In this document: in pieces, positions 52,434-56,432 of the stretch | Layout of the letters: every line of letters starts with the position of its first letter | How positions within the stretch are numbered: position 1 is the first letter of the stretch | NCBI RefSeq assembly: GCF_015645095.1 | Contig: NZ_JADOTW010000020.1 | Location: 1 to 64,000, forward strand | Reading direction: 5' to 3' | DNA from: Halomonas sp. 328 | GTDB taxonomy: Bacteria; Pseudomonadota; Gammaproteobacteria; Pseudomonadales; Halomonadaceae | DNA length: 64,000 nt | Notes under the pieces: generated by a model | Databases searched by the model: none | The model's input: the letters and a program-made list of their open reading frames with translations, nothing else | What the model was told of the DNA's origin: nothing | Program-made: the position numbers and the translations under genes

Positions 52434-53507
52434 ATGCCCCCATCCACGAGTTCTCACGCCCCCAGTACCGCCGAAGGCATGGGGCGATTCGAGCGCTTCC
52501 TCTCGGTCTGGGTGGCCCTGGCCATCGTCGCCGGGGTACTGCTCGGCCAGTTCGCCCCGGCGGTACCCGAGACCCTGTCGCGCTTCGAGGTCGCCCAGGT
52601 CTCGATCCCGGTGGCGGTGCTGATCTGGGCGATGATCTTTCCGATGATGGCACAGATCGACTTTGCCGCCGTACTCGGCGTGCGCCGCCAACCCAAGGGG
52701 CTGGTCATCACCACCACGGTGAACTGGCTGATCAAGCCCTTCAGCATGTTCGCCATCGCCTGGTTCTTCCTGATGGTGGTGTTCCGCCCCTTCATTCCCG
52801 AGGAGCTCGCCAGCCAGTACCTGGCCGGCGCCATCCTGCTGGGGGCCGCCCCCTGCACCGCCATGGTCTTCGTGTGGAGCACCCTGACCCGGGGCGATGC
52901 CGCCTACACCCTGGTGCAGGTGTCCCTCAACGACCTGATCATGCTGTTCGCCTTCGCCCCCATCGTGGTGCTACTGCTCGGTATCTCCAATATTCAGGTG
53001 CCCTGGGATACCGTGGTGCTATCGGTGGTGCTGTATATCGTGATACCGCTGACCGCCGGCGTCCTGACCCGGCGCATCCTGGTCAGGCGCCACGGCAGCG
53101 AGTGGTATGACAACGTCTTTATGAAGCATATTGGCCCGGTGACACCGATTGGGCTGATCATCACCCTGGTGCTGCTGTTCGCCTTCCAGGGCGAGGTCAT
53201 CCTCGCCAACCCGCTGCATATCGTGCTGATCGCCATCCCGCTGATTCTCCAGACCTTCCTGATCTTCTTTATCGCCTACGGCTGGGCCAAGGCCTGGAAG
53301 GTGCCCCACAACGTGGCCGCCCCGGGGGCGATGATCGGTGCCAGCAACTTCTTCGAGCTGGCCGTGGCCGCCGCCATCGCCCTGTTTGGCCTGCAGTCCG
53401 GGGCGGCGCTGGCCACGGTGGTGGGGGTGCTGGTGGAGGTGCCGCTGATGCTGGCCCTGGTGCGCATCGCCAACCAGACCCGGCAGCACTTCCCCAGTGC
53501 CGCCTGA
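52434..53507 (+). CDS. acr3: Arsenite efflux transporter Acr3
   Basis: A 357-residue, ten-helix arsenite permease. Key blocks: AVLIWAMIFPMMAQIDF, NWLIKPFSMFAIAWFFL, GAAPCTAMVFVWSTLTRGDAAYTLVQV with the conserved cysteine, and AAPGAMIGASNFFELAVAAAIALFG. It is plus strand and convergent with arsR. GGAG lies 8 nt before ATG; an in-frame ATG at 52479 is the alternative. It exports As(III). Confidence 0.93.
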   Translation: MPPSTSSHAPSTAEGMGRFERFLSVWVALAIVAGVLLGQFAPAVPETLSRFEVAQVSIPVAVLIWAMIFPMMAQIDFAAVLGVRRQPKGLVITTTVNWLIKPFSMFAIAWFFLMVVFRPFIPEELASQYLAGAILLGAAPCTAMVFVWSTLTRGDAAYTLVQVSLNDLIMLFAFAPIVVLLLGISNIQVPWDTVVLSVVLYIVIPLTAGVLTRRILVRRHGSEWYDNVFMKHIGPVTPIGLIITLVLLFAFQGEVILANPLHIVLIAIPLILQTFLIFFIAYGWAKAWKVPHNVAAPGAMIGASNFFELAVAAAIALFGLQSGAALATVVGVLVEVPLMLALVRIANQTRQHFPSAA

Positions 53508-53564: not shown

Positions 53565-53909
53565 TCAACAGAGCGCCGAACGCCGCTCCGGGCGGTTGCC
53601 CATGCAGCCGAGCCGGGCCTGGAGGGCCGAGAGGCGCGGCCCCTCCCCCGCCTCGGCGGCCTCCAGTACCTGGTGAGCCCAGTCGGGTAGGGTCGCGGCC
53701 AGGCGATAGTAGACCCACTGGCCGTCGCGGCGGTCGCTGAGCAGCTCGCAGGCGCGCAGCTGGGCCAGGTGGCGGGAGACCTTGGGCTGGGAAGCCTCCA
53801 GGGCATGGGTCAGCTCGCAGACGCAGAGCTCCCCCTCCCGGTGGATCAACAGCACCAGCAACAAGCGCGTCTCGTCCCCCAGGCACTTAAACAGACGAAT
53901 GGCTTCCAG
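53565..53909 (-). CDS. arsR: ArsR family repressor with apparent CTG start
   Basis: A 114-residue ArsR. The As(III)-binding CVC motif (about Cys29 and Cys31) is in GELCVCELTHALE, followed by the HTH ASQPKVSRHLAQLR. Homology runs N-terminal of any ATG/GTG/TTG start: the frame begins after TGA, and AGGAGGTGATTT leads straight to CTG at 53909, giving residues (M)EAIRLFKCLGDETR. Starting later at TTG 53864 would delete the first helix. The region around the start is repeated twice more upstream. Downstream of arsJ on the same strand. Confidence 0.85.
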   Translation of the reverse strand: MEAIRLFKCLGDETRLLLVLLIHREGELCVCELTHALEASQPKVSRHLAQLRACELLSDRRDGQWVYYRLAATLPDWAHQVLEAAEAGEGPRLSALQARLGCMGNRPERRSALC

Positions 53910-54106
53910 AAATCACCTCCTTCGAGGGCATCGGGCTCAGGCGGCCCGACATGGCAGGGCCCCCCAGGCACTTAAACAGACGAATGGCTTCCAGGAATCG
54001 CCTCCTTCGAGGGCATCGGGCTCAGGCGGCCCGACATGGCAGGGCCCCCCAGGCACTTAAACAGACGAATGGCTTCCAGAAATCACCTCCTTCGAGGGCA
54101 TCGGGC
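53876..54106 (-). repeat. Triplicated 85-bp unit carrying the arsR start
   Basis: AGGCACTTAAACAGACGAAT recurs at 53881, 53966 and 54051, an exact 85-bp period. Each unit includes the arsR Shine-Dalgarno, CTG start and first ten codons. Units 1 and 3 are identical over this part; unit 2 has two changes near the start. The array spans from the arsR 5' codons to the arsJ stop at 54107. Confidence 0.9.
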
Positions 54107-55324
54107 TCAGGCAGGCTGACGGGGCAGCCCCAGGGCCAGCAGGGCACTGGCCGCCACCAGGGCCGCGGCCACCCACAGGCAGGCGCTGAGCCCGTACTGC
54201 ATATAGAGCCAGCCCGACAGCAGGGTACCGATCAGCCGCCCCATGGCGTTGGCCATGTAGTAGAAGCCCACGTCCATGGAGACCCCGTCGGCCCGGGCAT
54301 AGTGGACGATCAGGTAGCTGTGCCAGCTGGAATTGATGGCGAAGAGCACGCCGAAAGCCAGCAAGCCTAGCACCAGCCAGGAGACCGCTTCCAGCGGCAA
54401 GAGCGCCAGCCCCACCCCGAGCAGGGCCAGCGCCGCCGCCCAGCCGGCGGTGAGGCGGCGCGCCTCGCCATGAATCAGCCGGGTCAGCCGCGGCGCCTGG
54501 GTCTGGACGCCGCCATAGCCGATCACCCAGATCGCCAGCAGGCCGCCCACCGTCCAGTGGCTCCAGCCGTGCTGTTCATGGAGGAAGACCGGCAACGCCA
54601 CCACGAACCAGACGTCCCGGGAGGCGAACAGGCAGAGCCGCGCCGCCGAGAGCACGTTCACCGCCCGCGACTTGGAGAACACCTCGCTGAACCTGGGCTT
54701 GCGCTTGAGCCGCCCCAGGTCGGCCTTGAGCCGCCACAGCGACAGCCCCAGCACGGCCACGAGCATCAGCGCCATGGCCAGCACCGCGCCCTGGAAACCG
54801 ATCAGCGTCAGCAGGGCCCCGCCGAGGAAGAAGCCGGCCCCCTTGAGGGCGTTCTTGGAACCGGTGAGGATCGCCACCCAGCGGTAGAGGGCGCTGCCGG
54901 CATTGGCGCTGTCCTGGGGCACCAGCACCTTGACCGCGCTCTTGGCGCTCATCTTGTTGAGGTCCTTGGCGATCCCCGAGAGCGCCTGGGCGGCCATCAC
55001 CCACACCACGGTGAGCAGCTCCGCCGGCACCAGCAGCATGGCGAGCGCGACGATCTGCAAACCGAGGCCGACGTTCATGGTGCGGTTGAGCCCGAGGCGC
55101 GCCCCCAGCCAGCCCCCCACCAGGTTGGTGACTACCCCGAAGGCCTCGTAGAAGAGGAACAGCAGGGCCACCTCCAGCGGCGAGTAGCCGAGCTGGCTGA
55201 AGTAGAGCACCACCAGCATGCGCAGGGCGCCGTCGGTGAGGGTAAAGGCCCAGTAGTTGCCGGTGATCAGCAGGTACTGGCGCACCTCGAAGGGCAGCGC
55301 CCGCAGCCGGGCGCCCAGGGACAT
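54107..55324 (-). CDS. arsJ: ArsJ, MFS organoarsenical efflux permease
   Basis: A 405-residue, 12-helix major facilitator. The start RALPFEVRQYLLITGNYWAFTLTDGALRMLVVLYF, then KDLNKMSAKSAVKVLVP and TGSKNALKGAGFFLGGALL, is ArsJ-like. ArsJ exports 1-arseno-3-phosphoglycerate made by the partner GAPDH, together detoxifying arsenate. ATG 55324 lies 13 bp past the gapdh stop; an in-frame GTG at 55345 overlaps it. Confidence 0.9.
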   Translation of the reverse strand: MSLGARLRALPFEVRQYLLITGNYWAFTLTDGALRMLVVLYFSQLGYSPLEVALLFLFYEAFGVVTNLVGGWLGARLGLNRTMNVGLGLQIVALAMLLVPAELLTVVWVMAAQALSGIAKDLNKMSAKSAVKVLVPQDSANAGSALYRWVAILTGSKNALKGAGFFLGGALLTLIGFQGAVLAMALMLVAVLGLSLWRLKADLGRLKRKPRFSEVFSKSRAVNVLSAARLCLFASRDVWFVVALPVFLHEQHGWSHWTVGGLLAIWVIGYGGVQTQAPRLTRLIHGEARRLTAGWAAALALLGVGLALLPLEAVSWLVLGLLAFGVLFAINSSWHSYLIVHYARADGVSMDVGFYYMANAMGRLIGTLLSGWLYMQYGLSACLWVAAALVAASALLALGLPRQPA

Positions 55325-55337
55325 GCCCCCTCCCCCA

Positions 55338-56354
55338 CTAACCACGGGCCACCTTGAGGGCCAGCTCGGCGGTGCGGTTGGCGTAGCCCCACTCGTTGTC
55401 GTACCAGGCGTAGAGCTTGAGCTGGGTGCCGTTCACCACCAGGGTCGAGGGCGCATCGACGATGGAGCTGCGCGGGTCGGTGCGGTAATCGATGGAGACC
55501 AGCGGCCGCTCCTCGTAGCCCAGGATACCGGCCAGTTCGCCCTCGGCGGCGGCCTTGAGCGCCCCATTGACCTCCTCGGCGGTGACCTCCCGCGCCAGCT
55601 CGAAGACCATGTCGGTGAGGGAGGCGTTGGCCAGGGGCACCCGCACGGCGTGGCCGTTGAGCTTGCCCGTAAGCTCCGGGAAGATGGCGGTGATCGCCTT
55701 GGCAGAGCCGGTGGTGGTGGGGATCAGGCTCATGCCGCAGGCCCGGGCCCGGCGCAGGTCCTTGTGGGGGGCATCGAGGATGCTCTGGGTATTGGTGATA
55801 TCGTGCACCGTGGTCATGGAGCCGTGGCGGATGCCGTAGGTCTCGTGGATCACCTTGACCACCGGGGCCAGGCAGTTGGTGGTGCAACTGGCGGCGGTGA
55901 CGATACGGTGCGTCGCCGGGTCATAGCGGTCGTCGTTGACCCCCATCACCACATTGAGCACTCCGTCTTCCTTGACCGGGGCACTGACCACCACCCGCGC
56001 CACCCCCTGCTCCAGGTAGGCCTGGAGCTTCTCCGTGGTCTTCATCTTGCCGGAGCACTCGATGGCCACCGCGCAGGTCGACCAGTCGCTGTCGGCCAGC
56101 TCCCGGTTGCCGCTGAAGGGGATCACGTGCCCATCGATGACGATGGCCTCCCCCTCGGCGCGGATGCCCTGCCCCGGGCTCCAGTGCCCATGCACGGAGT
56201 CGAACTCCAGCAGGTGCGCGAAGGTGGCGGCGTCGCCGCCCGGGTCGTTGATCCGGGCGATCGTCACCTCGCCGGTCTCGACCCGCGCCCAGAGCGCCCG
56301 CAGTGTCAGCCGACCGATGCGTCCCAGGCCGTTGATTCCGATAGTCAGTGCCAT
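55338..56354 (-). CDS. Glyceraldehyde-3-phosphate dehydrogenase, arsenic-cluster paralogue
   Basis: A 338-residue GAPDH with the NAD motif [10 protein letters not shown], active-site cysteine in [11 protein letters not shown] (about Cys156), and the C-terminal [12 protein letters not shown]. In this position before arsJ it should form unstable 1-arseno-3-phosphoglycerate from arsenate for export. ATG 56354 is preceded by AAGGAGAAGGG. The frame is open further upstream to 56408 through the candidate operator. Confidence 0.93.
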
Positions 56355-56397
56355 CCTACCCTTCTCCTTGACGAGCCCTGCCCGGGGGCAAGGCGCC

Positions 56398-56423
56398 CAT
56401 ATGAACATTCACATTAGCATATG
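56398..56423 (-). promoter_or_regulatory. Candidate ArsR operator before the gapdh-arsJ-arsR unit
   Basis: CATATG at 56398-56403 and again at 56418-56423, 14 bp apart, lie in a short AT-rich promoter region 44 bp before the ATG. Assignment to ArsR is inferred from position and the similar site before acr3. Confidence 0.4.
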
Positions 56424-56432
56424 TATAAAGAC

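Follow-up and report, generated by a model that had tools for sequence, protein, structure and literature searches.

At the junction between arsJ and arsR, on the minus strand of the window (the whole stretch of 64,000 nucleotides that was analysed), a unit of 85 bp occurs three times in succession, spanning positions 54111-53857, and each of the three copies includes a strong ribosome site, a CTG and the first codons of arsR. The anatomy of the array is real and unusual and, among the loci tested, confined to Bisbaumannia; taken as a whole it is an unusual piece of small anatomy and no new kind of system. The account that we regard as probable is an old duplication of the arsJ-arsR junction, homogenised separately in each species, together with an arsR that starts at CTG and with a translation of ArsR that would be at most modestly lowered.

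The triplicated unit and its surroundings

Unit 1 (minus strand, 54027..54111) begins in the stop region of arsJ and holds the ribosome site AAGGAGGTGAT at 54092-54082 and a CTG at 54079, while unit 2 (minus strand, 53942..54026) has the site AAGGAGGCGAT at 54007-53997 and its CTG at 53994. Unit 3 (minus strand, 53857..53941), with the extended ribosome site AAGGAGGTGAT at 53922-53912, holds the start of arsR and continues into the gene, diverging from the other units after CCTGGGGG. Tandem Repeats Finder reports the array with a period of 85, 2.8 copies, 97% matches and a score of 460, the next-best score among its 15 rows for the 64-kb window being 82, and the three 85-bp copies proposed in the sequence-only reading are thus borne out by both the sequence and the program. 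Units 1 and 3 are identical across their shared part and unit 2 differs at two sites, where TGATTT is replaced by CGATTC immediately 5' of its CTG. The ribosome site of unit 2 had been described as changed, which holds in part: the AGGAGG core is intact but the extended match is shortened by the two substitutions, which also abolish an in-frame TGA. The array sequence is a single match in its own genome, ruling out a dispersed repeat or mobile element.

The three CTGs are situated at 54079, 53994 and 53909 and, as had been stated, only the last of them opens arsR. The period of 85 does not divide by 3, which puts both upstream copies in another reading frame than the gene, and the short leader reading frames expected from this are indeed found, each with a predicted length of 35 codons. 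The first (minus strand, 53972..54079) runs from its CTG to a stop within the reading frame of unit 2, with an overlap of 23 nt, and the second (minus strand, 53887..53994), also from a CTG, overlaps arsR by 23 nt. The stop codon of arsJ ends at 54107, and in a hypothetical single-unit form the gap from arsJ to the CTG would be 27 nt, in agreement with the normal gap of about 28 claimed for the removal of two units.

The minus-strand gene row is dehydrogenase-arsJ-arsR, with arsR last. The product of arsJ (54107..55345) is an organoarsenical efflux MFS transporter (NCBIfam MFS_ArsJ, 585.5 bits, cut-off 400), and the gene before it encodes the ArsJ-associated glyceraldehyde-3-phosphate dehydrogenase (55338..56408 for the ORF as listed; NCBIfam G3PDH_Arsen, 558.6 bits, cut-off 450), whose start is likelier to be the ATG at 56354, behind GGAG, because the match to the PRK08955 profile sets in at residue 19. 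Convergent with arsR lies acr3 (plus strand, 52434..53507; NCBIfam acr3, 402.2 bits, cut-off 282.8), encoding an arsenite efflux transporter. Upstream of the dehydrogenase gene a stretch ACATATG...CATATG (minus strand, 56398..56424) is a candidate ArsR operator and ACATATG is also found upstream of acr3 (plus strand, 52366); we take these two stretches to be candidate shared ArsR operators. An operator within the units was ruled out, as neither ACATATG nor CATATG is present in the array. A search of the arsR strand of the array for a promoter-like site gave none and the motif TAGAAT is likewise lacking there, while of the nine loci outside Bisbaumannia in which arsJ lies under 300 nt upstream of arsR, seven have TAGAAT before arsR (read by eye; the exceptions are L060 and L078). 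This composition of the array suggests that the expression of arsR probably depends on read-through from upstream.

The same pair of genes, connected with 1-arseno-3-phosphoglycerate, makes up the arsJ-dehydrogenase operons of Pseudomonas aeruginosa and Halomonas GFAJ-1 (PMC5930303), whereas here the row ends with arsR, whose start is triplicated, and nothing comparable is described in the accessible portion of that paper. Related arsJ genes are also present on two plasmid records, from Halomonas sp. HAL1 (H1) and Hydrocarboniclastica marina (H2), where arsR is located elsewhere in the cluster and not after arsJ.

The probable CTG start of arsR and its ribosome site

The gene arsR (minus strand, 53565..53909, start CTG at 53909-53907) encodes an ArsR/SmtB repressor of 114 aa that scores above the curated NCBIfam cut-offs (PRK10141.1, 120.8 bits, cut-off 97; HTH_metalloreg, 96.1 bits, cut-off 55) and shows a distant match to the solved SmtB structure 1r1t (E 7.1e-10). 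In the arsR frame a TGA stands two codons 5' of the CTG at 53909 and the first in-frame ATG, GTG or TTG after it is a TTG at codon 16. In the nearest relative, Bisbaumannia pacifica NBRC 102220, the homologous codon is TTG, with AGGAGG at identical spacing and TAA immediately before it. The TTG of the sister species, the equal spacing of the ribosome site and the nearby upstream stop make the CTG at 53909 the best candidate for the arsR start; the earlier claim of a CTG start is therefore well supported by comparison, and we infer its use in the cell. ArsR of the two species differs at 8 residues out of 114, and the genes at 9 of 62 fourfold sites; arsR therefore looks constrained.

Among 40 Halomonadaceae loci (43 rows were examined and three, being out of register, left out; the B. 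pacifica TTG is among the 40) the homologous codon encodes Leu in 31, mostly as an internal codon, and is most often CTG (17 of 40). This frequency suggests that CTG might be ancestral and the TTG acquired in the sister species. Many Halomonadaceae loci have a conventional start 2-3 codons upstream of the homologous codon; Bisbaumannia lacks such an upstream start, and arsR there appears to begin directly at the Leu codon.

Switches to such a start are reported as very rare, those to CUG numbering one among 2,468 ancestral UUG starts and two among 61,358 AUG starts (PMC5622118), and in Caulobacter dnaA a CUG behind a ribosome site binds the 30S subunit in vitro but is unused in vivo (PMC8443254), as far as the portions of these papers at hand go. 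In sigR of Streptomyces (GTC start) and in infC (ATT start), the weak start restricts the quantity of product, according to the part of PMC5472188 that was available; arsR resembles both in that its start falls outside ATG, GTG and TTG, and differs in that the codon is CTG and is preceded by duplicated starts.

The extended site AAGGAGGTGAT of units 1 and 3 can pair over 11 nt with the standard 16S tail. This tail is assumed as the anti-Shine-Dalgarno sequence, and both the complementarity and the duplex energies rest on it, because pattern searches for the 16S 3' end were empty in both drafts, the 16S gene being truncated in the draft of the window species and not found in that of the sister. 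On this assumption the predicted duplex over a 13-nt stretch amounts to -18.9 kcal/mol in units 1 and 3, -15.0 in unit 2 and -11.3 in both units of B. pacifica, and AGGAGG is present in all five units of the two species. In a sample of 464 kb of the own genome (the 64-kb window plus 400 kb), both strands, the 11-mer AAGGAGGTGAT occurs twice, both times in the array. Weak starts tend to accompany strong ribosome sites, a compensation described by Belinky et al. 2017 (PMC5622118, in the text available), and by analogy the long ribosome site beside the CTG of arsR is consistent with such compensation. The likeness consists in the combination of a weak start and a strong site; Belinky et al. treat a statistical tendency, as opposed to the one case seen here, in which the polarity may be read either way.

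The junction in the sister species and the background of tandem repeats

In B. pacifica the same junction is duplicated, with two diverged units at a spacing of 78 nt, a repeat that Tandem Repeats Finder does not report and that was recognised by exact block spacing together with alignment. The 17-nt block GATGCCCTCGAAGGAGG is identical in all five units of the two species, and the alignment of the two species' spacers scores above 4998 of 5000 shuffles. Derivation of the spacer from the end of arsJ was also considered; with the window sequence 53 of 1000 shuffles reached the score and with that of the sister 701 of 1000, and this origin is not established. The start and codon 6 are both CTG in all three window copies and both TTG in the two B. 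pacifica copies, and this agreement within each species indicates that the copies have been homogenised within species or duplicated anew. The spacing of 78 in B. pacifica is a multiple of 3 and the upstream copy is in frame, yet stops preclude an extended ArsR.

The diverged two-unit form of the sister suggests that the duplication probably predates the split of the species, one duplication before the split being the simplest reading of the sequences, and makes an assembly error unlikely. An artefact of assembly or sequencing, for which one may point to the draft state of the genome (75 contigs), is highly improbable given that unit 2 carries two substitutions of its own and that the sister form stands in a separate assembly. 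With one genome each, the unit number is three in the window species versus two in B. pacifica, which fits a dynamic array. Variation in the copy number of tandem repeats in leader regions is of a known kind. The array is like such cases in having direct repeats in a 5' region with a copy number that differs between species, and unlike them in that its unit carries a whole translation start and in that the variation is known between species only.

A family search gave matches in 271 of 275 genomes, and the locus set consists of the best 80 of at least 584 confirmed named arsR loci. Within 400 nt upstream of each locus (283 nt for L124) the arsR start recurs upstream in just one of these 80, that of B. 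pacifica (L046); such a copy is found at none of the 79 others, several of which come from one species or genome and which are thus not 79 independent lineages (top score 20 versus 60). The window would accordingly belong to a further species of Bisbaumannia, for which B. salifodinae, the one remaining species that the NCBI taxonomy lists in the genus, is a mere guess. The sequence-only reading had held that relatives with an ATG and a single unit would speak against it, and here the outcome is mixed: B. pacifica has a TTG and two units, whereas the 79 other loci among the best 80 of at least 584 lack an upstream copy and all have ATG, GTG or TTG at the matched start or at most 42 nt upstream.

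Tandem duplication as such is unexceptional in the own genome. In the 464 kb Tandem Repeats Finder reports further arrays with a period of at least 60 at three places (C8 4870-5233, C15 49343-49517 and C15 113719-113914), and the 80 relative loci (the best 80 of at least 584), 490 kb in all, contain one array with a period of at least 50, at L109. When 6,649 candidate ATG, GTG or TTG starts in the 464 kb were searched for a 30-nt near-copy at most 300 nt upstream, 21 matches were obtained. They fall in four places, namely the array on C8 (~4.9-5.1 kb), also on C8 a 39-bp array at ~19.6 kb, position 100833 of C15 and the other strand of the arsR array. Two of the larger arrays can be compared with the sister, where C15 113719 is single-copy and the C8 array is repeated too. 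Arrays of similar size elsewhere, one of them also repeated in the sister, make sharing or persistence alone weak evidence for function.

As to the nature of these other repeats, G000:C8:4870-5233 (L142) consists of palindromic units (TACCAGCCGTGGCTGG) with periods of 60 and 76 bp, intergenic by look, and the matching place in B. pacifica has a 76-bp array of 3.2 copies. The repeat G000:C15:113719-113914 (L131) is a 93-bp tandem duplication at the apparent 3' end of a minus-strand gene, with one copy in B. pacifica, and at G000:C15:100833 (L131) a GTG-started stretch of 30 nt is repeated, with one mismatch, 103 nt upstream. The array L109:5164-5937, next to the arsR locus of Pseudomonas paracarnis, has a period of 134 bp and 5.8 copies.

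Possible consequences of the upstream starts

In the account that we favour, the ribosome site, the start codon, the first 11 codons of arsR and the spacer would have been duplicated in tandem in the genus Bisbaumannia, the outcome being three near-identical copies in the window species and a diverged pair in B. pacifica, with the likeness of the copies within a species kept by recombination or repeated duplication. Translation of arsR would begin in the last copy, at the CTG, aided by the unusually long ribosome site. Units 1 and 2 would then be dead-end starts, where loaded ribosomes would make out-of-frame peptides of 35 codons. Ribosomes from upstream would continue for 23 nt across the next start, which leads one to expect a translation of ArsR that is modestly lowered or unaffected; any use of the upstream copies may thus alter the level of ArsR at most modestly.

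Bio-informatic work on the array RNA gave little sign of structure. It folds more weakly than shuffled sequences (z +3.24; 200 of 200 shuffles as stable or more) and an Rfam search gave no match at E up to 1; a structured leader RNA or attenuator of that type is therefore not supported. To open the arsR ribosome site together with the start, a predicted 8.6 kcal/mol is needed when three units are present and 8.0 when there is one; if the ribosome site is considered by itself, the values are 5.3 and 5.5 kcal/mol, respectively. By this model the number of units hardly changes the accessibility of the arsR start.

An alternative, which we consider possible but would not bet on, is that the array has been selected as an attenuator, in which decoy starts and the weak CTG hold ArsR low relative to ArsJ and thereby sharpen or sensitise induction by arsenic, with the copy number as a dial and selection acting against collapse to one unit. 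Tandem repeats that lie close together would be expected to collapse, and the presence of the duplication in both species in spite of this argues for such selection, as does the AGGAGG kept in every unit, but homogenisation with the functional copy accounts just as well for the upstream copies having been conserved. The comparison with other repeats of the own genome is divided, the 93-bp duplication being single-copy in the sister but the C8 array being repeated in both species. Rare starts that limit a regulator are known (GTC in sigR and ATT in infC; PMC5472188, as far as the text at hand describes them), but here no change in the accessibility of the arsR start is predicted. The more specific proposal of a decoy array, where duplicated complete starts and dead-end reading frames would form a copy-number dial on a CTG-started metalloregulator and would have been maintained across two species, is somewhat less likely still. 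A literature search with a small set of phrases on ribosome sites that are duplicated or in tandem yielded no paper.

Much less likely is a ladder of coupled translation, in which ribosomes leaving arsJ would start again on short ORFs and be handed on to arsR, the translation of arsR being coupled in this way, through the units, to that of arsJ. Short ORFs begin with ATG at 54101, 54016 and 53931, the first of them 5 nt after the arsJ stop, and B. pacifica has two short ORFs that are linked through an overlap of the form TGATG. The hand-over would be weak, as the short ORFs end 20-22 nt beyond the next CTG and each arsR-type start has a strong ribosome site of its own; in the E. coli pairs treated in the accessible text of PMC10666635, translational coupling drops sharply with distance. 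A first step is thus possible but a hand-over to arsR is doubtful.

For annotation, the consequence is that a gene finder restricted to ATG, GTG and TTG begins arsR at codon 16, 15 residues short (99 aa in the ORF list). Even if the decoy reading is false, nature offers in arsR a clear candidate for initiation at CTG combined with a long ribosome site. If the decoy reading is true, the number of repeats would be a simple and evolvable means of setting the level of an autoregulated repressor, and the array would offer a natural test of how strong ribosome sites interfere when an mRNA carries several of them.
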